A DNA stretch of 32,876 nt, from NCBI GenBank assembly GCA_963170165.1, contig CAUJGQ010000068.1:1-32876 (forward strand), in the 5' to 3' direction. Each line of letters starts with the position of its first letter. The first letter of the stretch is position 1. Origin of the DNA: Chloroflexota bacterium (GTDB lineage Bacteria > Chloroflexota > Dehalococcoidia > CAUJGQ01). Shown here piece by piece: positions 15,196-28,083 of this stretch. The position numbers and the translations under genes are program-made. The notes under the pieces were generated by a model. That model saw only the letters and a program-made list of their open reading frames with translations, was not told the DNA's origin and did no database searches.

Positions 15196-17679
15196 ATGAC
15201 CGTACAGACCGTAACGACAGAGCTGGCGGGACGCACGCTCACGCTGGAGACCGGCCGGATCGCTGGGCAGGCAAACGGAGCAGTCACCATCCGCTTCGGT
15301 GATACCGTGCTGCTCGCCACCGCCACTAGCACCGGCCGGCCGCGGGAAGGAATTGACTTCTTCCCGCTCACCGTTGACTACGAGGAGCGGCTGTACGCTG
15401 TCGGCCGGATTCCAGGCAGCTTCTTCCGGCGCGAGGGCCGTCCGGGCACGGAGGCGATTCTTGATGCCCGCCTGACCGACCGGCCGCTGCGTCCGTTGTT
15501 TCCCAAAGGATTCCGTAATGAGGTGCAGGTGATTATCACCGTGCTCTCGGCGGACCAGGAGAATGACCCGGACACCTTCGGTACCGTCGCGGCCTCGGCC
15601 GCGCTTGCCATCTCTGATATCCCATTTGATGGGCCGGTCAGCTCGGTGCGGATCGGCTACCTCGATGGCGCCTATATCATCAGCCCGACGTTCGAGCAGC
15701 GATCCCGCAGCGAGCTGGACCTGGTGGTCGCTAGCACTCGCGACGCGGTGGTGATGGTGGAGGCGGGCGCCAACCAACTGTCTGAAGCGACGATCTTGGG
15801 CGGGATCCTCAAGGCGCACGAGGTCAACGGCCAGGTGATCGCGCTTCAGCAGGAGCTGGTGGCGCTGGCCGGGCAGCCCAAGCGAGCCTGGCAGGCGCCG
15901 GCCGCCGCTGCCGCTGAGCCGGCCGCCGAGGCCGCCACCAAGGGCCGCAGCCGTAAGAAGGCGGACGGTGACGGCGCCACGCCGCCGGCGGCCGCGCTCA
16001 GCATCGTCGACGCCGTGGCTGCCCAGATGGCCGGCAAGATGGATGACCTGCTAGCGGTGGCGAAGGACGAGCGCTCCGAGTTGCTGTACCAGCGCCAGCA
16101 GGAACTGGCCACCGCGCTTGGCGACCAGTATGAGCCGAAAGCGCTGAACGCGGCGCTGGACGCGCTGATGAAGAAGGCCGTGCGCAAGGCGATCCTCGAG
16201 GAGGACCGCCGCCCGGATGGCCGCCGGATGGACGAGATCCGGCCGATCACCTGCGAGGCCGGCATCCTGCCGCGCACCCACGGCACCGGGCTGTTCACCC
16301 GCGGCATGACGCAGGTGCTGACCATTGCGACCCTCGGCTCGGCGTCGATGGAGCAGAAGCTCGATACGCTCTCTCCGGAGGATACCAAGCGCTACATTCA
16401 TCACTACAACTTCCCGCCGTTCTCGGTCGGCGAAGTGCGGCGGATCGGCTCCCCCGGGCGTCGTGACATCGGCCACGGGGCGCTGGCTGAGCGCGCCTTG
16501 GAGCCGGTGATTCCCCCGTCGGAGGAGTTCCCTTATACCCTGCGGCTCGTCTCCGAGACGCTTTCCTCCAACGGCTCCTCATCGATGGCCAGTGTCTGCG
16601 GTAGCACGCTGGCGCTGATGGATGCGGGGGTGCCGATCAAGGCGCCGGTGGCGGGTGTGGCGATGGGCCTGGTGATGGGCGACGACGGCAACTTCAAGGT
16701 GCTGACGGATATCGCCGGCCTGGAGGACGCCTTCGGTGATATGGATTTCAAGGTGGCGGGCACACGCGAAGGCGTCACCGCCATCCAGATGGACATTAAG
16801 ATCAAAGGGCTGAGCGAGGATGTGCTGCGCACCGCGCTGGAACAGGCGCGCGTTGGGCGGCTGTTCATCCTCGACCGAATGGCAGAGACGCTGGCCGAGC
16901 CGCGTGGCGAGCTCTCCAAGTACGCGCCTCGCATGTTCCGTATTACCATCCCGGTGGAGAAGATCGGCACGGTCATCGGCTCCAAGGGGGCCACGATCCG
17001 CTCAATCATCGATGAGACCGGGGCGACCATCGATATCGAAGATGACGGCTCGGTGTTCATCGGCGCCAGCAGCGAGGAATCGGCGCGCAAGGCGATCGCG
17101 ATCATCGAGGGCCTGACCAAGGAGGTCGAGGTCGGCCAGGTCTATACCGGAAAGGTGTCGCGCATCCTGCCGTTCGGCGCCTTCATCGAGATCCTGCCTG
17201 GCAAGGATGGCCTGGTGCACATCTCTGAGCTGGCGTCGGAGCGCGTCGAGCGGGTCGAGGATGTCGTTCGTATCGGTGATGAGGTGATGGTGGTGGTGAC
17301 AGAGATTGACAATCTCGGCCGCATCAACCTCTCGCGCCGGGCGCTGCTCGATGGCGGCGACGGCACACCGCGTCCCCGACGCGAGGATGAGGAGTTCTTC
17401 CCCTCGCGGGATCGCGGCCCGCGTGGCGGCGGCGGCCCTGGCCGCGGTCGGGGTGGCTACGGTGGCGGTGGCGACCGTGGCCCGCGCGGAGGCGGCGACC
17501 GTGGGCCGCGGCCGGGTGGCCCTGGTGGTGATCGCGGCCCGCGGCCGGGTGGCCCCGGCGGCGATCGCGGTCCGCGGCCGGCTCCGCCGCCGAGCGGTGG
17601 TGACCGGGCGCCGCGGCCGGCGCCGCCGTCACCGGATCGCCCCGCTCCGCGTCCACCGTTCGGCGGCCCGCGCCGGTAA
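15196..17679 (+). CDS. pnp: Polyribonucleotide nucleotidyltransferase (PNPase) with extended C-terminal tail
   Basis: 3'-to-5' phosphorolytic exoribonuclease of the RNA degradosome; 827 aa against about 700-750 usually. Order: RNase PH domain 1 (about 1-215), helical linker domain, RNase PH domain 2 (about 335-560), KH domain (IPVEKIGTVIGSKGATI) and S1 domain (GQVYTGKVSRILPFGAFIE). Catalytic residues by alignment with E. coli D486/D492/K494 are D511, D517 and K519 (FGDMDFKVAG). Two additions: an Ala/Lys-rich insert at about 231-267 before the helical domain, and a 100-residue tail from about 724 made of repeated GDRGPRPGGPG-type units rich in Arg, Gly and Pro. The tail resembles RGG-type RNA-binding or disordered regions. 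Ribosome site GAGGAAGGA. Downstream of rpsO. Confidence 0.97.
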   Translation: MTVQTVTTELAGRTLTLETGRIAGQANGAVTIRFGDTVLLATATSTGRPREGIDFFPLTVDYEERLYAVGRIPGSFFRREGRPGTEAILDARLTDRPLRPLFPKGFRNEVQVIITVLSADQENDPDTFGTVAASAALAISDIPFDGPVSSVRIGYLDGAYIISPTFEQRSRSELDLVVASTRDAVVMVEAGANQLSEATILGGILKAHEVNGQVIALQQELVALAGQPKRAWQAPAAAAAEPAAEAATKGRSRKKADGDGATPPAAALSIVDAVAAQMAGKMDDLLAVAKDERSELLYQRQQELATALGDQYEPKALNAALDALMKKAVRKAILEEDRRPDGRRMDEIRPITCEAGILPRTHGTGLFTRGMTQVLTIATLGSASMEQKLDTLSPEDTKRYIHHYNFPPFSVGEVRRIGSPGRRDIGHGALAERALEPVIPPSEEFPYTLRLVSETLSSNGSSSMASVCGSTLALMDAGVPIKAPVAGVAMGLVMGDDGNFKVLTDIAGLEDAFGDMDFKVAGTREGVTAIQMDIKIKGLSEDVLRTALEQARVGRLFILDRMAETLAEPRGELSKYAPRMFRITIPVEKIGTVIGSKGATIRSIIDETGATIDIEDDGSVFIGASSEESARKAIAIIEGLTKEVEVGQVYTGKVSRILPFGAFIEILPGKDGLVHISELASERVERVEDVVRIGDEVMVVVTEIDNLGRINLSRRALLDGGDGTPRPRREDEEFFPSRDRGPRGGGGPGRGRGGYGGGGDRGPRGGGDRGPRPGGPGGDRGPRPGGPGGDRGPRPAPPPSGGDRAPRPAPPSPDRPAPRPPFGGPRR

Positions 17680-18384: not shown

Positions 18385-19284
18385 CTACACCGCGATCGGC
18401 AGGTCTACGCGCTGGCGGGCAAGCTCTGTGCGGATCTGCTCGGCGATGGCCTCGTCCGGCTCCACCAGCGGCAGGCGTGGCGCCCCGACGGAGAAGCCGA
18501 TGTGGTTGAGCGCAAACTTAAGTGGAGACGGGCTGCCAATCAGGAACAGCGCCTTGACCAGAGGCAACAGCCGCCGATGGATGGTGGCCGCCTCATCGGT
18601 GCGGCCATTGATGAAGGCCGCGATCATCGCCTGGATCTGCATCCCCACCAGGTGCGATGCGACAGAGACCACGCCATATCCGCCCAGCGCAAGCAGCGGC
18701 AGGGTGTCTTCGTCGTTGCCGCTCCACAGACGGAAACTCTCGCGCGTGCTCTGAATGATCCGTGCCGACTGCGCCAGATCTCCCGATGCCTCTTTGATGC
18801 CGATGATGTTGGGGATGTGGGAGAGGCGGATTGTGGTCTCGGCTGTCATGTTTGTTCCCGTCCGAGACGGGACGTTGTACAACATGCACGGCAACGAGGT
18901 AGAGCGAGCGATGGCCTCGAAGTGCCGGAAGAGGCCTTCCTGAGACGGCTTGTTGTAGTAAGGAACTACCAGTAGCGCACCGTCGACACCGAGCTTCTCC
19001 GCTTCCTGTGTCAGCTCGATGCTCTCGTGAGTGCTGTAATTGCCGGTGCCGGCGATGACGGCGCCTCGCCCGCCAACGGCCTTCTTTATGGTGGCGAAGA
19101 GCTGCCACTTCTCCTTGAGCGTGAGTGTGGGCGATTCACCGGTGGTGCCTGAGACGATCACGCCGTCGGATCCGGAGTCCAGCAGCGCCCGCGCCAGGCG
19201 GCCGGCCTGGGCGTAGTCAACCTGCCCATCACGATCAAACGGGGTGGCCATGGCGGTCAGCAGGCGGCCAATGTCTGTCGTCAT
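18385..19284 (-). CDS. dapA: 4-hydroxy-tetrahydrodipicolinate synthase
   Basis: First committed step of the diaminopimelate/lysine branch: condenses pyruvate with aspartate semialdehyde through a Schiff base. 299 aa TIM barrel. Catalytic residues by alignment with the E. coli enzyme: Lys164 in GIKEASGD, Tyr136 in LYNVPSRTG, Tyr110 in VPYYNKP, Thr47/Thr48 in SGTTGES, and Arg141. ATG with GGGAGGA upstream. It follows asd by 111 bp on the same strand and the two act in consecutive steps. Some family members are not true DapA, but all key residues and the asd neighbour support this call. Confidence 0.95.
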   Translation of the reverse strand: MTTDIGRLLTAMATPFDRDGQVDYAQAGRLARALLDSGSDGVIVSGTTGESPTLTLKEKWQLFATIKKAVGGRGAVIAGTGNYSTHESIELTQEAEKLGVDGALLVVPYYNKPSQEGLFRHFEAIARSTSLPCMLYNVPSRTGTNMTAETTIRLSHIPNIIGIKEASGDLAQSARIIQSTRESFRLWSGNDEDTLPLLALGGYGVVSVASHLVGMQIQAMIAAFINGRTDEAATIHRRLLPLVKALFLIGSPSPLKFALNHIGFSVGAPRLPLVEPDEAIAEQIRTELARQRVDLPIAV

Positions 19285-19395: not shown

Positions 19396-20430
19396 CTAGA
19401 CCTGCTTGCGCTCGATCATCGCTTCTGCGATCTGGATGGCGTTCAGCGCCGCGCCTTTGCGCAGGTTGTCTGAGACCAGCCACATGGCGAGGCCGTTGGG
19501 GTGCGACAGATCACGGCGAATGCGGCCGGCGTAAACAGGATCCGCGCCGGCTGTCTGCACCGGATGGGGGTAGCCCGCGACGGCCGGGTCATCAATCACG
19601 GCCATGCCCGGGAACGCCGCCAGCAGGGCGCGCGCCTGTTCCGGCGCCACCGGTTCCGCCAGCACGACATTGACGCTCTCGGAGTGGGAGACGTAGACCG
19701 GCACCCGCACCGTGGTGGCCGCCATCTGCAGATCAGGCAGGTGCATGATCTTGCGCGTCTCCCGCACCATCTTCCACTCCTCGGAGGTGTACCCTTCCTC
19801 TTTGAAGGAACCGATGTGCGGCAGCAGGTTGAAGGCGATCTGGTGCGGGTAGACTTCACCGGGGATGTTCGTGGCGCCATCGAGCGCCTGGCGCGATTGG
19901 TCCGTCAGCTCGCGCATGGCGGCCGCACCGGTGCCGGAGACCGATTGGTAGGTGGAGACGACCACCCGCCGCACCGGGCTGACCGGGTGGAGCGCCGCCA
20001 GTGCCATCACCAGCGGCGTGGTGGAGCAGTTCGGAATGGCGACGATCCGCCTGCCGGCGTCCAGGTCGGCTGCGTTGACCTCAGGAACAATCAGCGGGAC
20101 ATCTGGGTCCATCCGCCAGACGCCGGAGTCATCAATTGCCACCGCTCCTTCTCGGGCGGCAATGGGTGCGTACTCCTGCGAGATCTCGTCAGTGGCGGAG
20201 ATGAAGACAAAGTCGGCGCCCCGGATTGCCTGTGGGGTTGTCTCTTCAACGGTCAGGTCGTCACCGCGCACGCGAATGCGCGACCCAGCCGACCGCGCAG
20301 ACGCCAGCAGCTTCAGCGATTTGAGCGGAAACGGACGCTTTTCGATGATGTCTAGAAAGACCTTGCCCACTGCGCCGGTAGCGCCGATCACGGCGATGTT
20401 GTAGAGGCGTCCGTTTCCATTCGTATCCAT
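19396..20430 (-). CDS. asd: Aspartate-semialdehyde dehydrogenase
   Basis: Makes aspartate semialdehyde from aspartyl phosphate with NADPH, feeding lysine/DAP, threonine and methionine synthesis. 344 aa. N-terminal nucleotide-binding GATGAVG, catalytic Cys135 in IPNCSTTPL, acid/base His249 in RVPVYVSHSE, and substrate segment NIPGEVYPHQIAFN. The start is the ATG at 20430; no Shine-Dalgarno sequence is visible just upstream, so the message may be leaderless or poorly initiated. It lies 111 bp upstream of dapA on the same strand. dapB, on the same strand, is about 6.8 kb upstream, beyond two opposite-strand secreted-protein genes. Confidence 0.96.
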   Translation of the reverse strand: MDTNGNGRLYNIAVIGATGAVGKVFLDIIEKRPFPLKSLKLLASARSAGSRIRVRGDDLTVEETTPQAIRGADFVFISATDEISQEYAPIAAREGAVAIDDSGVWRMDPDVPLIVPEVNAADLDAGRRIVAIPNCSTTPLVMALAALHPVSPVRRVVVSTYQSVSGTGAAAMRELTDQSRQALDGATNIPGEVYPHQIAFNLLPHIGSFKEEGYTSEEWKMVRETRKIMHLPDLQMAATTVRVPVYVSHSESVNVVLAEPVAPEQARALLAAFPGMAVIDDPAVAGYPHPVQTAGADPVYAGRIRRDLSHPNGLAMWLVSDNLRKGAALNAIQIAEAMIERKQV

Positions 20431-20742
20431 GACGGCATGGTATCGTGAGGCGGGCGGGCGGGCAACGCGCGCGGCTCATGGGCCGCTGGCAAACGTCCTC
20501 CGCGCGGCGCCAGGTGCTCACCAGACTGCGCCTGATGCCCGAGCACTCGCTGCCCCAACACTCGGTGCTCCTCCCGCGGAGGGCATGGCGGACAGCGCGC
20601 ATCGGGGTGGCGCGCTGGCTGGTAGACCAGCTGGTCGGTACGCGCTGGCACGTACCAGTGACGAACCCTATACTTTGCACGCGCCCCAGGTTTCGGTTCG
20701 GTGACGCTGCACGCGCCGTGGCGTTGCCCCGGAGGAACCTGG
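20431..20742. promoter_or_regulatory. Divergent region between asd and the first secreted-protein gene (312 bp)
   Basis: No gene is seen. On the plus strand TATACT at 20669-20674 is a likely -10 for the secreted-protein gene, about 70 bp ahead of its ATG; the -35 is poor. Upstream of it are a perfect palindrome GCTGGT-AG-ACCAGC (20618-20631) and an inverted repeat GGTACG / CGTACC immediately after it, which could be operators. A GAGCAC / GTGCTC inverted repeat lies further left. I could not recognise a lysine riboswitch or T-box ahead of asd. Confidence 0.4.
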
Positions 20743-23700
20743 ATGATCCCCATATCCCGGTGGTCGAAACGCCTGCTGTTGCCGGCGCTGCTGCTCACTG
20801 TGCTCGGCGTGTTGCCTGCACGGCAGGCACTGGCTCAATCCGGCGGAAGCGCGTCGCTCACCGCGCGGAGCGAGCGGCTAACGGCGGTGCCCGCTGGTCG
20901 CACGCCGCCGATGCGAACGCTGTCCGGCGCCGAGCGGGAAGCCCTGCTAGCCCGCGTCGATGCGCGGCGAGAGGCAGAGGCCCAGCGGTGGGGCGCGGTC
21001 CAGCCGCGGCAGACCGTTCCCGCCAGACGCGCCGATGGATTAGTGCCGCAGCCAACACGGCTCCAGACCGTGGAGGCAGCCGGCGACCTCGTCACCGTGC
21101 GTAACGTGGCGAACCCCGTGGCGGCCGGCGCATCCGGTCAGACGCTGGCCGAGCCGGCCGCGGCCCATCGCGGCGACGACGTCTTCTACACCGGTAACAC
21201 GTACGCCTCATATTCGGTCGATGGTGGGACGGCATTCACCGAGGTCACCATTCCAGCGGGACCCGCGGATGCGCCGTCGCTGTGCTGCGACCTGGATGTG
21301 ATGTACGACCCGGTCACGGACAAGTTCTACTGGATCGGGCTGTACATCAACGGTGCGGCGACGAACGGCGTGGTGCGGATCTTCGTGCAGACGCTGGTAA
21401 ACCAGCCGTACGACTGCTTCTTTGACGTGGATCCGGGCGGTTCTGCTGACAACATCTTGCCGGACTACCCGCATCTCGGCCTGACGAACACCTATCTCTA
21501 TCTCACGACGAATAACAATGATGAGTGGCAGGTACGGCGGATGCCGCTGACCGAGCTCGTGGGATGCAGCTCCGCCAGCGTGCAGATCGTGTCTGTGCCA
21601 CATACCACCTACGGCCAGCGGGTGGTGGTGCCCGCCCGTGGGACCGTGACGACCATGTACTGGGCGCTGCTGGAAGCGGTGAGCGGCTCGCCCACGCAGG
21701 CCGCGGGACTGCGGGTATTCTCCTGGCCGGACAGCTCCGGCGTTGTCAACCACAGCTCGCAGCCGATCCAGACCTCAGAGCATACCAACCCGGACTGTCG
21801 CGGTGGCACCGGGAATTATGACTGGATCGAACGCACCACGGCATGGGGGATGACCGGTTTCCGCCTGCGCGGCGCCGTGGGCGGCGGCAAGCTGTTCTTT
21901 GCGTGGAACTCCGCGCCAACCGGTGGCTTCCCCAACGCGCACATCCGCGCGGCGTTGCTCGATGAGGCGACGCTGGCGGTGCAGGATCAGCCGCACCTGT
22001 GGAGCGCAGATTGGTGTGCGGGATTCCCGCAGGTGGCCTTCAACAGTAGCGGCCACCTCGGCATCACCGGCGCGTTCGGTGGGAAGCATGGTGGCAGCGG
22101 TCTGGCAGCACAAGGCTTCGTCTCGGTCAACGATGACCTGACGACCGGCAACGCCTACGCGCCGCTGATGACGGTTGCCACCGGCACGCACAACCGTACG
22201 GACAGCCGCTATGGCGACTACACCACAATCGTCCGCCACCAGGTCTGCCCGGACCTGTGGACGGCGACGGCCTACGCGCTCAACGGCGGCGCTGCAGTGA
22301 CCAATGTCAATGCCCGCTACGTGGAGTTTGGCCGCGAGCGCGACACTTGCGCCAGCGTTCCGGCCGCTCCGGGCAATCTCCGGTCTACCGGCGCGACCAG
22401 TTCCACGATCGCGCTGGCCTGGGATGACGTCTCGAATGAGACCGAGTACTTCGGCTCCTATCTGAAGTATGGCACCGGCGACTATATCCCCTTCGCCCCC
22501 GCGGCCAACGCCACGAGCTTCACGCTTACCGGTCTTGAGTCCGGGACGATCTACTACGTATACCTGCAGGCGTGCAACACCGGGGGGTGCAGCCCCTATG
22601 CACCGACGCTCAACGCCGCCACAGCGCCGTTGCTGCCGTCCAACTTCCGGTCTACGTCCACTAGTTCGAGTGGCATCGCACTGGCGTGGAACGACACCGG
22701 CGGCGAGGCACGCTATGAGGTGCTGTGGGTGATCAGCACGGCGCCCACGACCTACACCACCGTCACCCTCACGTCGAACGTCACCAGCTGGACGCACAGC
22801 ACAGTGACGCCCGGCGCCACCTATTACTACTGGCTGCGGGCGTGCCTTGGTCAGGCATGTTCGGGGTACACCGGCGCGGTCGTGGCGACGGCGTCAGAGC
22901 CGCCACCCACACCGGGCAACTTCCGCAAGACGAGCACCGGCGCAACCTGGATTGACCTCGCTTGGAACGATGTCGTTGGTGAATCCAGTTATCAACTGGC
23001 ATGGGTGCTCTCTACGGCGCCATCGAACTTCACCTATTACAATTTCAGCGTCAATCAGACGAGCTACAGTCACACGGTGTCGCCCAACCTGACCTACTAC
23101 TACTGGCTGCGCGCCTGCAATGGCAGTGTCTGTTCAGGGTGGGCGCCAGCAGTGACGGCCACGGCCGCGCCCACGCCAAGCGTGCCGGCCGGCCTGCGCG
23201 TGACGTCCTCGTCCTCGTCGGCAATCAACCTCGCATGGAACGATGTCAGCGGAGAGACACGATACCTGATCGCGTGGACGGCCTCGGCCCCGATCAGCTA
23301 CAACTTCCCGGAGTTCGCGGCGAATACCACGAGCTTCAATCACGCCACCGTCGCGGCGGGGTCGAGCTACTACTACCACGTCGCCGCGTGCGCAGGGGTG
23401 AACTGCTCGAACTGGTCTGGTGGCATTGCCGCCACCGCGGCCACGGCGCCACCCATTCCCTCGAACTTCCGTGTGACGGCGGTGACCGGCGGGTCACTGA
23501 CGCTGGAATGGGATGATGTGACCGGCGAGACGGCCTATCAGATCGCCTACACGAAGACCAGCCCGATTACCTATCTGTACCAGAGCACACCGCCCAACAT
23601 GACGGTGGTGGTATTGAGCGGATTGCAGGCGGCAACGAGCTATTACCTGCATATCCGTGCCTGCACCGGCTTCACCTGCTCCAACTTCCATGGTGGTATC

Positions 23701-23949
23701 GTCGGAACGACCGCCGGCGCGCGCCCGGATGGCGGCAGCCGCGTGACGGCGTTGCCGCCGCCGGACGCGCCACCACCGGGCCTGCGGCGGATCGAAATCA
23801 GCGGCCTTCCCGCACCGGGTGCGGTGCTGAGAGAGATGGCGCCGGTTGACGGGCCGCCGGCAAATGCGCCGGCGCCGGGCAGCGAACGTCATCAGCCGGG
23901 GTTGCCACCGGCAGCCAGCCCGGGAGCGTCCGGCGGTAGCCGGCGGTAG
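20743..23949 (+). CDS. Secreted propeller-like protein with five FN3 repeats
   Basis: 1068 aa. Signal peptide MIPISRWSKRLLLPALLL and on, cleaved probably after Ala31 (ALA-QS). Next comes a short charged, maybe pro-region with ARVDARREAEAQ. Residues about 95-535 form a beta-rich domain with CCDLDVMYDP (181-190) and a late DSRYGDY (487-493), the kind of motif seen in secreted sialidase/BNR-like propellers. Five fibronectin type III repeats (about 539-992) follow, then a 76-residue Pro/Gly-rich tail. No LPXTG, lipobox or C-terminal membrane helix is visible. ATG at 20743 with GGAGGA 6 bp ahead is preferred over GTG 20701. It is a paralogue of the next gene. Likely released or loosely wall-bound, perhaps binding or cutting a polysaccharide or protein; no enzyme activity can be claimed. 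Confidence 0.9.
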   Translation: MIPISRWSKRLLLPALLLTVLGVLPARQALAQSGGSASLTARSERLTAVPAGRTPPMRTLSGAEREALLARVDARREAEAQRWGAVQPRQTVPARRADGLVPQPTRLQTVEAAGDLVTVRNVANPVAAGASGQTLAEPAAAHRGDDVFYTGNTYASYSVDGGTAFTEVTIPAGPADAPSLCCDLDVMYDPVTDKFYWIGLYINGAATNGVVRIFVQTLVNQPYDCFFDVDPGGSADNILPDYPHLGLTNTYLYLTTNNNDEWQVRRMPLTELVGCSSASVQIVSVPHTTYGQRVVVPARGTVTTMYWALLEAVSGSPTQAAGLRVFSWPDSSGVVNHSSQPIQTSEHTNPDCRGGTGNYDWIERTTAWGMTGFRLRGAVGGGKLFFAWNSAPTGGFPNAHIRAALLDEATLAVQDQPHLWSADWCAGFPQVAFNSSGHLGITGAFGGKHGGSGLAAQGFVSVNDDLTTGNAYAPLMTVATGTHNRTDSRYGDYTTIVRHQVCPDLWTATAYALNGGAAVTNVNARYVEFGRERDTCASVPAAPGNLRSTGATSSTIALAWDDVSNETEYFGSYLKYGTGDYIPFAPAANATSFTLTGLESGTIYYVYLQACNTGGCSPYAPTLNAATAPLLPSNFRSTSTSSSGIALAWNDTGGEARYEVLWVISTAPTTYTTVTLTSNVTSWTHSTVTPGATYYYWLRACLGQACSGYTGAVVATASEPPPTPGNFRKTSTGATWIDLAWNDVVGESSYQLAWVLSTAPSNFTYYNFSVNQTSYSHTVSPNLTYYYWLRACNGSVCSGWAPAVTATAAPTPSVPAGLRVTSSSSSAINLAWNDVSGETRYLIAWTASAPISYNFPEFAANTTSFNHATVAAGSSYYYHVAACAGVNCSNWSGGIAATAATAPPIPSNFRVTAVTGGSLTLEWDDVTGETAYQIAYTKTSPITYLYQSTPPNMTVVVLSGLQAATSYYLHIRACTGFTCSNFHGGIVGTTAGARPDGGSRVTALPPPDAPPPGLRRIEISGLPAPGAVLREMAPVDGPPANAPAPGSERHQPGLPPAASPGASGGSRR
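22357..23718 (+). repeat. Five tandem FN3 units with a conserved Cys pair
   Basis: Units of about 90 residues beginning near 22357, 22630, 22900, 23170 and 23446. Each has P-x-N/G-F/L-R near its start, a LAWNDV-like strand, a TYYYWL-like strand and an AC-x4-CS pair (QACNTGGCS, RACLGQACS, RACNGSVCS, AACAGVNCS, RACTGFTCS). The Cys pair would make a tight disulfide, consistent with an extracellular location. Confidence 0.9.
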
Positions 23950-23963
23950 CCGGCCGTTGCATC

Positions 23964-23999
23964 GAGGGGCCGGGCTGCCAAGCAGGCGCCCGGCCCCTC
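23964..23999. terminator. Strong hairpin after the first FN3 gene
   Basis: Perfect 12-bp inverted repeat GAGGGGCCGGGC / GCCCGGCCCCTC with further GCC/GGC pairing inside the loop, 15 bp after the stop. No T-tract follows. It should separate the two secreted-protein genes into distinct transcripts. Confidence 0.65.
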
Positions 24000-24113
24000 T
24001 GCGCTCCCGCCCCCGAGGTACACATCAGAGCGCCGCGAAGTCACCGAGCCGTCACTTCGGGACGGCCGCGCGCCTGCGAACATTCCCACTACCGTTAATG
24101 GTTGCAACATGGT

Positions 24114-24119
24114 TATAAT
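24114..24119 (+). promoter_or_regulatory. -10 of the second FN3 gene promoter
   Basis: Perfect TATAAT in a locally AT-richer patch (24095-24119), with transcription expected near 24126 and a leader of about 60 nt. No good -35 at the usual distance. Just upstream lies the palindrome GTTGCAAC and a doubled ATGGTT, which could be an activator or repressor site. The gene therefore probably has its own promoter. Confidence 0.6.
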
Positions 24120-24186
24120 CCGCGAGCGCCCGGCAGGCCGGGAGGGAACCGGCCACCACGGATAACCGCTGTCAGGGAGGAATCGT

Positions 24187-27108
24187 ATGCATCCTCGATG
24201 GTCATGGAGCCGTGCGGCGGCGGCTATGTTCGTCCTGGCACTCGCGATGGTTCCCACGCGTGACCTGTCTGCGCAGCCGGCCCGCCCGGATGGTGGCCGC
24301 GTCGCGGATGTGGAACTGGTGCGGCCTGACAACCCACACGATCTGCGGCCGGCGCCGGTGATGAGCGCCGCACAGCGGCTGGACCTTCAGTCCAGGCTGG
24401 CGGCTCGGCGCGAGGCGCAGGCCGGCGGAGGCAGTCCGGCGGCGGCATCGGTCGGGCGCGCGCCGAGCCTGCCGGTGGCCGGCCCGACCTCAGCGCCTGT
24501 AGCAGAGTTGCCTGATGACCTGGTGCAGCCGGTCAACCGGCAGAACCCACTGTCGGCAGGCGGCAGCGGCTCGACGCTGACGGAGCCCGCCACCGCTCAC
24601 AAGGGCGACTACGTCATCTACACCGGCAATACATACGCGTCGTACTCCACCAACCGCGGTGTGAGCTTCACCCAGATGACGATCCCGGCCGGCCCGACCG
24701 GCGCTGAGTTCGAGTGCTGCGACCTGGACGTGATGTACGACCCGGGTACGGACAAGTTCTACTGGATCGTCTTGTACACGGATGGCAGCGTGACGCAAGG
24801 CGCTGTGCGCATCTTCGTTCAGAACCCAGGAGCGACCGGCGCGACGCCGTGGTCTTGCTCGTATACCTACCAGCCTGGCGCGGGTATCATCCCGGACTAT
24901 CCGCACCTGGGTCTGTCCGCGAACTACCTCTACTTCAACACCAACGAGTCCAGCGACTGGAAGATGCGGCGCTACGCGCTGGCGCAGCTGTCGACGTGCG
25001 CGGCTACGCCGGTCTCCACCTTCACGGAGTCGCACAGCACGTATGGCCACCGTGTCACGGTGCCCGCGCGGGTACCGAACGGCGGCACGGCGATGTACTG
25101 GGCGATCATGGATTCGATCTCTGGCAACAGCGCCACCGCGCTCCGCATCTACACCTGGGCCGAGGCGGTAACCGCCACCGGCGTTACCAGTGTGCAGCGC
25201 GCAATCACACCATCTAACCAGGTGAACCCGGATTGCCGTGGCGGCACGGGCAACTTCGACTGGATCGAGCGCACCACCGCCTGGAGCACCAGCGGCTTCC
25301 GCCTGCGCGCGGCCGTCAGCAGCAACCAGATGACGATCGTGTGGAATTCGGCCGCAACCAGCACACTGACGCCGGCTCAGTCGCAGACGCAGGCGCACAT
25401 CCGTGCGGCCCAGTTCGCGCTGAGCGGGTTAGCGTTGACGGCCGAGCCGCACGTCTTCAACAACGACTATTGCTGGGGCTTCCCGCAGATCGCCTACAAC
25501 CAGAGCGACTACCTGGGCATCACGGGCTTCTACGGTGGCCAGGCAGGCGGCGGCGGCACGGCAGCGCAGGGCTTTGTTGGCGTCGACGACGATCTTACCA
25601 GCGGCAACTCATACTCCGTGGCAGCGGCGGTTGCCGGCACTCATAACCGCAGTGACAGCCGGTGGGGCGACTACACCACGGTGGTCCGCAACCAGTCTTG
25701 CCCGAACCTGTGGACGGCATCGACCTTTGCGCTGAACGGCGGCAATGCCACGAGCAATGTCGATGCCCGCTACGTGGAGTTCGGCCGCTCCCGCGACAAC
25801 TGCGTGAGCACGCTGGCTGTCCCCGGCAACTTCCGTCTGGGCACGATCAGCTCATCATCGGTCCAGGTCCTGTGGAACAACACCGCCGAGGAGACGTACT
25901 TCCGGGTGGTGCGCTGGAACAGCGGCGGCTCGTACGTGTACTCTAGCCCGCACCCCGGCCAGGATGTGCTGAGCTACACCTTCGGCGGCCTCACGCCGGG
26001 TGTGCTCTATCACTTCTGGGTGCAGGCCTGCAACGCGGCCCTCTGCAGCGACTGGTCGCCGTCGATCAGCAGCTACGTGCAGCCGACCGCCCCCGGCAAT
26101 TTCCGCAACACCAATGCCACCACATCGCAGATTGACCTGGCGTGGAACGACGCCACCGGCGAGACCGGCTATCAGGTTGTGTGGACGCCTGCGGCCGGCG
26201 GCGCATACACCTACGTGAATCTCGGCGCCGGCGTGACGGGGTGGACGCACACACCGGTGACCGCAAACGCGACGTATTACTACTGGCTGCGCTCGTGCGC
26301 CGGGGCGCTGTGCTCAGCCTGGATGGGCGCGCTGGTGGTGACGGCAGCCGCAACTCCGTCGCTGCCCAGCGGTTTCGGCGTGACCAGCTCCTCGACGTCC
26401 CAGATCGTGCTGGGCTGGGGCGATGTCAGCGGCGAAACCGGATATCAGATCGCCTGGACGGCCGCCAGCCCGATCAGCTACAACTTCGTGAATCTGGCTC
26501 CGAACACGACCTCTTGGACGCACACGCCGGTGACCTCCGGCCAGACCTACTACTACCACATCAAGGCCTGCGCTGGGGCGAACTGCTCTCCGTGGTCAGG
26601 TGGCGTGGTGGGCACAGCTGCAGCGGCGCCGTCCGCTCCGACGGGCTTTACCCGGACCGGCGGCACCAGCACCTCCGCGACGCTGGCCTGGAACGACGTA
26701 TCTGGAGAGACCGGTTACCGTATCGCCTACTGGCGGTCGGGCGCCAGCACCCTGTACTGGAACGTGTCCGCCAACAACACAGGCACTACGGTGACCGGGC
26801 TCACGCCTGGCTACACCTATTACTTCTGGATCCAGGCGTGCACCGGCGCCGCCTGCTCCGGTTGGTCCGGCCCGGTCAGTGGCAGCACCGGCCCGCTGGT
26901 TGGCCGCCCAGATAGTGGTGTGGCGCCGGCCCTACCGCCGGGTGGGAGCCCGCCGCTGCGTGATGCGTCGGGCATCCCGGATGATGTGGATGACCGTGAA
27001 GCCGGCGGTCCGGCCGCGCCACCCGATGATGCGCCACCGCCGCCGCTCCGCCCCGGTTCCCCTCCACCACCGCCGCCGAACGGTGGCCCTGGAGGTGGCC
27101 ATCGCTGA
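24187..27108 (+). CDS. Secreted propeller-like protein with four FN3 repeats (paralogue)
   Basis: 973 aa with the same layout as its left neighbour. Signal peptide to about Ala29 (LSA-Q), then a charged stretch with LQSRLAARREAQAG. A propeller-like domain (about 110-540) has YTGNTYASYS, CCDLDVMYDP (177-186), DYPHLGLS, CRGGTGNFDWIERTTAW and DSRWGDYTTVVR (from 490). Four FN3 repeats (about 545-901) and a 72-residue tail with runs of Pro, Gly and acidic residues follow. ATG has GGGAGGA 5 bp ahead. Long segments are nearly identical to the first protein while others differ, so it is an older tandem duplication with one repeat gained or lost. No anchor is seen; the role is unknown beyond a likely extracellular binding or hydrolytic one. 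Confidence 0.9.
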   Translation: MHPRWSWSRAAAAMFVLALAMVPTRDLSAQPARPDGGRVADVELVRPDNPHDLRPAPVMSAAQRLDLQSRLAARREAQAGGGSPAAASVGRAPSLPVAGPTSAPVAELPDDLVQPVNRQNPLSAGGSGSTLTEPATAHKGDYVIYTGNTYASYSTNRGVSFTQMTIPAGPTGAEFECCDLDVMYDPGTDKFYWIVLYTDGSVTQGAVRIFVQNPGATGATPWSCSYTYQPGAGIIPDYPHLGLSANYLYFNTNESSDWKMRRYALAQLSTCAATPVSTFTESHSTYGHRVTVPARVPNGGTAMYWAIMDSISGNSATALRIYTWAEAVTATGVTSVQRAITPSNQVNPDCRGGTGNFDWIERTTAWSTSGFRLRAAVSSNQMTIVWNSAATSTLTPAQSQTQAHIRAAQFALSGLALTAEPHVFNNDYCWGFPQIAYNQSDYLGITGFYGGQAGGGGTAAQGFVGVDDDLTSGNSYSVAAAVAGTHNRSDSRWGDYTTVVRNQSCPNLWTASTFALNGGNATSNVDARYVEFGRSRDNCVSTLAVPGNFRLGTISSSSVQVLWNNTAEETYFRVVRWNSGGSYVYSSPHPGQDVLSYTFGGLTPGVLYHFWVQACNAALCSDWSPSISSYVQPTAPGNFRNTNATTSQIDLAWNDATGETGYQVVWTPAAGGAYTYVNLGAGVTGWTHTPVTANATYYYWLRSCAGALCSAWMGALVVTAAATPSLPSGFGVTSSSTSQIVLGWGDVSGETGYQIAWTAASPISYNFVNLAPNTTSWTHTPVTSGQTYYYHIKACAGANCSPWSGGVVGTAAAAPSAPTGFTRTGGTSTSATLAWNDVSGETGYRIAYWRSGASTLYWNVSANNTGTTVTGLTPGYTYYFWIQACTGAACSGWSGPVSGSTGPLVGRPDSGVAPALPPGGSPPLRDASGIPDDVDDREAGGPAAPPDDAPPPPLRPGSPPPPPPNGGPGGGHR
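25819..26889 (+). repeat. Four tandem FN3 units with a conserved Cys pair
   Basis: Units begin near 25819, 26086, 26353 and 26626. The Cys pairs are QACNAALCS, RSCAGALCS, KACAGANCS and QACTGAACS. The third unit (PISYNF, YYYHIKACAGANCS) is most like unit 4 of the other protein, which suggests unit-by-unit descent and not independent expansion. Confidence 0.9.
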
Positions 27109-27140: not shown

Positions 27141-27175
27141 ACCGGCCCGGAGCGCGTCACACGCTCCGGGCCGGT
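27141..27175. terminator. Bidirectional hairpin between the second FN3 gene and dapB
   Basis: Perfect 14-bp inverted repeat ACCGGCCCGGAGCG / CGCTCCGGGCCGGT with a 7-nt loop, in the 91-bp convergent spacer. It would end transcripts from both sides. Confidence 0.7.
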
Positions 27176-27199: not shown

Positions 27200-27994
27200 T
27201 TACGCGAGCCCCATTAGCCGTTCCAGGCCGATGACCAACCCCGGACGTTGCATGACGGCGTGTACCGCCAGAATGACGCCGGGAAGGAACGAGTCACGGC
27301 TTGTGCTGTCGTGACGGATAGTGAGCGTCTGCCCCTGTCCGCCGAACAGCACCTCCTGATGCGCCACCAGGCCAGGCAGGCGCACCGAGTGGATTGTGAT
27401 CCCCTGCTGCTGGCCGCCGCGGGTACCTGGAACTGTCTCCTTCTCGGTGGGTGGGGTGGTGAAGTTGTGACCGTGGGCAGCGGCCATGCCCCGGGCCGTC
27501 GCCAGGGCCGTGCCAGAGGGGGCGTCAATCTTCCTGTCATGATGGAGCTCGATGATTTCCGCGACCTCGAAGAAAGGCGCCGCTACCGCCGCGAAGTGCA
27601 TCATCAGCACTGCGCCCACGGCGAAGTTGGCAGCGATGACCCCCCCGATGCGGTGCTCGTCGCACTGGTCGCCAAGCTGCTGCACAAAGTGCTCCGTCAG
27701 GCCGGTCGTCCCAATCACCGGGCGGACGCCCGCGCGGACGGCGACCGGCGCGATCTGCTGTGTCCACTCGTGGTGGCTGAAGTCCACCATCACATCTGGG
27801 CGCGTAGCGGCGATGATGCCGTTTGCGTCGGCCGAAAGCGGTACCGAGCCGCCGCCCGGCAGCGGCAGCGCGGTCCCCTGAGCGAACTTCTCCAGTACAC
27901 CGACGGGCTGCAGGCCGGATGTGGCGGCGATTCCGCCCAGCATCTCGGTCCCCATCCGGCCGGAGCCCGCGATCAGTACCCGGATGTCAGTCAT
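27200..27994 (-). CDS. dapB: 4-hydroxy-tetrahydrodipicolinate reductase
   Basis: Second step of the DAP/lysine branch, reducing the DapA product with NAD(P)H. 264 aa. Nucleotide-binding GSGRMG (10-15), IGTTGLT near 95-100, and the catalytic ELHHDRKIDAPSGTAL with His151/His152 and Lys155. The ATG at 27994 has a strong GGGAGGGAGG upstream; an earlier in-frame start at 28015 would add 7 residues across that site. It is on the same strand as asd and dapA, but about 6.8 kb away behind two opposite-strand secreted-protein genes, and must use its own promoter. Confidence 0.95.
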   Translation of the reverse strand: MTDIRVLIAGSGRMGTEMLGGIAATSGLQPVGVLEKFAQGTALPLPGGGSVPLSADANGIIAATRPDVMVDFSHHEWTQQIAPVAVRAGVRPVIGTTGLTEHFVQQLGDQCDEHRIGGVIAANFAVGAVLMMHFAAVAAPFFEVAEIIELHHDRKIDAPSGTALATARGMAAAHGHNFTTPPTEKETVPGTRGGQQQGITIHSVRLPGLVAHQEVLFGGQGQTLTIRHDSTSRDSFLPGVILAVHAVMQRPGLVIGLERLMGLA

Positions 27995-28083
27995 GCCCTC
28001 CCTCCCGGCGGCCACGTGTGATGCGAACGGGCACAGCGTAGCATGCCCCCTGGCCCAAGGCTGCGCGCCGCCGCCGGACCGGG

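Follow-up and report, generated by a model that had tools for sequence, protein, structure and literature searches.

Among the described systems that come closest to the proteins analysed here, there are CylK, the sialidase/BNR propellers (GH33 and relatives) and the FN3 proteins (PF00041). In CylK, catalysis takes place at the top face of the propeller and relies on Tyr473 and Asp440, besides an arginine, Arg105, supplied by an extra Ca-binding N-terminal domain (PMC8916777). Nearer by sequence, and uncharacterised, are secreted proteins consisting of a propeller only, from Micromonosporaceae (Virgisporangium, Micromonospora, Rhizocola) and from a Methylomirabilota MAG.

The window analysed here is a stretch of 32,876 nucleotides (contig CAUJGQ010000068.1) from a Chloroflexota bacterium, in which two plus-strand ORFs, P1 and P2, occupy the asd-dapB gap of 6.77 kb (Table 1). 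ORF coordinates and Pfam assignments bear out the first-pass annotation, which had placed two large genes there on the strand opposite to the leftward dap genes.

Table 1. Positions of the P1/P2 pair, its domains and the neighbouring genes in the window
Feature	Position	Strand	Remarks
pnp (PNPase)	15196..17679	+	convergent with dapA; in relatives immediately upstream of dapB, same strand
dapA	18385..19284	-	Pfam
asd	19396..20430	-	Pfam; divergent from P1
P1	20743..23949	+	secreted propeller-FN3x5-tail protein, 1068 aa
P1 signal peptide	20743..20838	+	Sec type, ..RQALA|Q; hydropathy, no lipobox; cleavage site by eye
P1 seven-bladed propeller domain	21052..22371	+	alignments; homology to modelled P2 domain
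P1 FN3 array	22366..23728	+	five domains, ~91 aa each
P1 Pro/Ala/Gly/Arg tail	23729..23946	+	PPPDAPPP 23755-23777; PPANAPAP 23854-23876
Hairpin 3' of P1	23964..24000	+	without T-tract
P2	24187..27108	+	secreted propeller-FN3x4-tail protein, 973 aa
P2 signal peptide	24187..24273	+	Sec type, ..DLSA|Q; cleavage site by eye
P2 seven-bladed propeller domain	24487..25830	+	AlphaFold2 model, pLDDT 84.3, pTM 0.87
P2 FN3 array	25822..26908	+	four domains
P2 Pro/Gly tail	26909..27105	+	PPDDAPPP 27019-27041
Hairpin between convergent P2 and dapB ends	27141..27175	+	without T-tract
dapB	27200..28015	-	Pfam; separated from asd by the P1/P2 pair

Gene signals and history of the dap cluster

Both genes start with ATG (20743 and 24187) and have GGAGG-type ribosome sites. 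The strong hairpin reported after each gene is a real inverted repeat (-42 kcal/mol, z -2.9 for P1; z -1.7 for P2), but neither hairpin has a T-tract and no intrinsic terminator was scored after P1 or P2. A promoter-like site had also been proposed for each gene, but a match was found at P1 only (9/12, 20645-20674), with the number of such matches being about that expected by chance. The view of the two genes as self-contained units is therefore weak.

Among relatives, dapB and asd are less than 300 bp apart in 27 of the 33 that have both genes (in 29 the two are on one contig), pnp immediately precedes dapB in 30 out of 36, and the full pnp-dapB-asd-dapA order is present in one of them (G036). 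The ancestral order, as reconstructed from these arrangements, is pnp-dapB-asd-dapA. Given that the window reads pnp> <dapA <asd P1> P2> <dapB, both an inversion of the dap block and a gain of the P1/P2 pair are needed. Of 393 genomes of the class only 4, the source genome among them, have a full-length propeller match, and the pair is accessory, not core. Thus, the proposed insertion into a dap operon is right in that pnp-dapB-asd adjacency is usual in relatives and the pair is not a core one, but it was not a clean insertion, since the dap block was inverted too. In this comparison of the dapB-asd interval dapB was not regularly apart from asd, nor were the two genes present everywhere.

The GC content, GC3 and codon use of the pair are like those of its neighbours, indicating that the gain was not recent or that the donor genome had a similar composition. 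Searches for signs of mobile-element cargo found no integrase or transposase, no further gene in the block and no convincing boundary repeat. An inverted repeat (17645-17667 / 27072-27094, 87%) was considered as the inversion endpoint and rejected, because the ancestral order is not recovered when the segment between its arms is flipped, and the region contains several other GC-rich matches of this kind. In our view, the pair came to lie between asd and dapB as a side effect of rearrangement and is not functionally linked to lysine synthesis. The locus clearly illustrates how lineage-specific genes can break up a conserved pnp-dapB-asd-dapA cluster.

In the only relative of the same family, pnp, dapB and asd are on three contigs, and the dap cluster may thus already have been loosening. 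This genome (G001) has a different secreted WD40/PD40-like propeller gene (L063:6047-7342) divergent upstream of asd, at P1's place, and its dapB (L062:7612-8408) is matched in two frames that overlap, which may reflect a frameshift or an error of assembly.

Architecture of P1 and P2

P1 and P2 have the same order of parts, a Sec-type signal peptide, an N-terminal linker, the propeller, an FN3 array and a Pro/Gly/Arg tail, and their sequences point to export through Sec. The FN3 model (PF00041) scores 79.7 bits in P1 and 93.6 bits in P2, above the gathering cut-off of 25, whereas a lipobox, an LPxTG motif and a transmembrane segment in the tail are absent from both. Hydropathy, Pfam and motif checks thus agree with the earlier description of two proteins with signal peptide, propeller, FN3 repeats and Pro/Gly tail and with no recognisable anchor. 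The string CCDLDVMYDP is indeed common to both, letter for letter, but the propeller domains, described as near-identical, are only 56% identical.

No Pfam or NCBIfam model covers the propeller domain, and the PDB sequence search gave no related solved structure of note; with the family profile, CylK was not matched at E up to 10. The AlphaFold2 model of the P2 domain, a confident one, was built from 22 sequences and supersedes a weak one from four sequences (pLDDT 58.5). It has seven blades closed by the N-terminal strand, as counted from the strand list of the model and not from its coordinates. Foldseek matches propellers of many kinds, among them sialidases, GH43 and DAIP, at a TM of about 0.36-0.45 and an identity of about 10%. 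The VIA ranking has the CylK propeller first (Z 25.7, rmsd 3.9, 348 residues), YncE next (Z 24.5, 299 residues) and then WD40 folds.

The propeller family and its conserved residues

A scan of named genomes retrieved 19 propeller relatives from Actinomycetota, Methylomirabilota, Planctomycetota, Acidobacteriota, Binatota, Pseudomonadota, other Chloroflexota and one archaeal genome. Distant relatives are also present in plasmid records, annotated as hypothetical protein, and no viral ones were found. A literature search on such proteins in Chloroflexota, or on vicinal-disulfide propellers, returned nothing relevant. Together, these proteins represent a broad unnamed family of extracellular propellers with seven blades, marked by an invariant pair of vicinal cysteines (CCD), for which a new Pfam entry could be created.

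In the alignment of 22 members, numbered as in the P2 domain, Y45, G47, A51, S54, G58, C77, C78, D79, D137, P139, N338, G394, D395 and F432 are invariant and E33, R108 and R162 nearly so, E33 being conserved in 21 members and replaced by Asp in the remaining one. According to the model, the invariant motifs CCD, DxP and GDY and a conserved EP are located before or at the start of inner strands, with E33, D79, D137 and D395 at or just before those of blades 1, 2, 3 and 7. Propeller active sites are usually at inner-strand starts and, by the usual propeller geometry, these four acidic residues would lie near the channel mouth. No catalytic residue set of a characterised enzyme could be matched in the P1/P2 propellers, and the structure matches are generic to propellers. 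The first-pass statement that there is no recognisable catalytic site has to be set against motifs that are invariant across phyla and sit at inner-strand starts.

In relatives from other phyla, the same propeller is followed by other surface-type modules (CARDB, FlgD_ig, Calx-beta/BACON/PPC, Ig plus dockerin), as would suit an extracellular head whose stalk varies between lineages. There are also propeller-only members, of 534-594 aa in Micromonosporaceae and of 539 aa on another contig of the source genome (C126). In each of the three genera of Micromonosporaceae, the propeller gene is immediately followed by a convergent gene for a small Ig-like lipoprotein (L043:7277-7846, L044:7305-7859, L045:7314-7811; mutual identity 39-44%).

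Duplication and ancestry of the pair

In a maximum-likelihood tree the P1 and P2 propellers are sisters (100/100), within a subfamily (100/100) that also includes the contig C126 copy, the Methylomirabilota MAG and the three Micromonosporaceae. The remaining Chloroflexota members, of which three are of the same class, fall outside it. This pattern suggests transfer between phyla, although unsampled paralogy could be an alternative source of it. The copy on contig C126 (L013:3564-5180) is a third propeller of the same genome, secreted and without FN3 or tail. It groups with the Methylomirabilota protein (94/87) and not with P1/P2, and the propeller-only form, found here and in Micromonosporaceae, is probably ancestral within the subfamily.

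Across the two genes, P1_4 groups with P2_3 (89/81), and P1_2 and P1_3 with P2_2 (98/89). Because the FN3 units pair in order, the tandem duplication most likely covered the complete gene, FN3 array included, and either P1 gained one unit or P2 lost one. Sister propellers and paired FN3 units support the earlier view of P1 and P2 as paralogous secreted propeller-FN3 proteins.

An FN3-plus-tail module in the genome

FN3 arrays of the P1/P2 kind were found in eight genes on six contigs of the source genome, and only weak FN3 matches were obtained when relatives were searched for the FN3-plus-tail module. The six other exported FN3-plus-tail proteins (L014, L015, L016, L017, L018, L019) differ in their N-terminal domains. 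Pfam identifies a GSDH propeller and a reprolysin-like metalloprotease; C16 carries what is, from its motifs alone, a distant sister propeller, and inspection by eye suggests PQQ/YncE-like repeats for C18 and C159 and Ig-like repeats for C161. FN3 plus Pro/Arg tail is a putative display module, used across the genome, that unites different propellers and a protease.

All eight tails are Pro-rich, and Arg is the last or second-last residue in seven. The motif PP[ASPD][ND]APxP is present in six (shuffle probability 0.0002 to 0.003 each), and the tail motif PPx[ND]APxP was selected after inspection of the tails. Its DNA pattern has 10 matches genome-wide, seven of them in FN3-protein tails, compared with seven matches in total for a control pattern; the tails may be similar through common descent. 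The three further matches lie in a kinase linker, in a spurious ORF and at the Pro-rich end of a PPIase of the parvulin type, and were set aside. This PPIase (L092, contig C102, 419-aa ORF) is membrane-anchored and has PPPDNAPVP in its Pro-rich C-terminal tail, a sharing of the motif that may be due to chance.

The genome encodes three sortases, and one of the sortase genes neighbours that of a small protein with a classic LPRTG-TM-RRSR terminus (L112:353-1962), indicating that sortase anchoring is present in this Chloroflexota genome. P1 and P2, with neither LPxTG nor a hydrophobic tail segment, do not appear to be substrates despite these sortases. We consider it doubtful that the eight exported FN3 proteins of this Chloroflexota lineage use their Arg-ended, PPx[ND]APxP-bearing tails as a novel C-terminal signal for sorting or envelope attachment, one that needs no membrane helix and operates alongside ordinary sortase.

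Proposed function and alternatives

Taken together, we slightly favour a reading in which P1 and P2 are tandem-duplicated exported modular proteins, with a glycan-directed propeller head, an FN3 stalk and a display tail, whose site among the dap genes is incidental. The propeller would be the N-terminal head, from an uncharacterised extracellular family, and its invariant motifs at the inner-strand starts most likely make up a site for ligand binding or catalysis at the mouth of the channel. It is reasonable to suppose that the ligand is most likely a polysaccharide or glycoconjugate, given the sialidase/GH-like Foldseek neighbours and the one Asp-box-like hairpin per protein, though this is the least supported part. 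The FN3 array presumably serves as a stalk keeping the propeller away from the attachment point, and the disordered Pro/Arg tail would be a lineage-specific module for display or retention at the envelope, independent of sortase. P1 and P2 are thus most likely surface-displayed propellers that act on or bind glycans. Of the surface adhesins and polymer-acting exoproteins suggested earlier, the sequence cannot choose between adhesin and exoenzyme.

A possible but less probable alternative is that the two are pure adhesins or matrix proteins, in which the propeller merely binds protein or glycan, the FN3 array is adhesive and no chemistry is performed. FN3, CARDB and Ig companions are frequent in adhesive proteins and no catalytic set was matched, but it is the propeller that holds the most highly conserved residues, and these are retained in propeller-only members, which argues that the propeller works without FN3 units. 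It is distinctly unlikely that the propeller catalyses a non-glycosidic reaction, CylK-like or lyase-type for instance, even though CylK, which employs the top face of its propeller (PMC8916777), ranks above the next unrelated entry in VIA; there is no sequence relation between them, and the Ca-binding domain that supplies Arg105 in CylK has no recognisable counterpart in P1/P2.

We regard as highly improbable a cell-wall programme tied to diaminopimelate synthesis, with P1 and P2 as peptidoglycan-acting exoproteins and a functional site beside asd and dapB. Adjacency to the dap genes, export, the divergent placement beside asd and the different secreted propeller (L063) in the same position in the same-family relative would agree with it, but dapB-asd-dapA is kept in relatives without such genes, and in G008 the propeller homolog and the dap cluster are on different contigs.

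Comparison with known systems

The C-terminal propeller of CylK (7RON/7ROO) shares with P1/P2 the seven-bladed fold and gives the longest structural alignment (348-352 residues), but at 8-9% identity there is no detectable sequence relation. No Pfam hit was obtained in the ~100 residues that precede the propeller, where a CylK-type Ca-binding beta-roll with a catalytic Arg was sought. The resemblance to CylK is one of fold, not membership. With the sialidase/BNR propellers P1/P2 have in common an Asp-box-like SxDxGxxF/W hairpin in blade 1, and sialidases are among the Foldseek matches. The GH33 propeller has six blades, whereas the P2 model has seven and each protein carries a single Asp-box-like hairpin; the [FY]RIP motif of GH33 is absent from P1 and P2 and found in one distant family member only, and Pfam sialidase/BNR models do not hit P1/P2 (best BNR E 0.042, in 2 of 22 members).

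The propeller-only proteins of Micromonosporaceae and Methylomirabilota belong to the P1/P2 subfamily and are 41-44% identical to P2 over the domain, differing from it by the lack of FN3 and tail. Finally, P1 and P2 resemble the FN3 proteins (PF00041) in their nine FN3 units, with whole-protein Pfam scores far over the cut-off, but each unit carries a Cys pair (RAC..xxCS), and arrays of this type are specific to the source genome, where they are followed by Pro/Arg tails of a common type.
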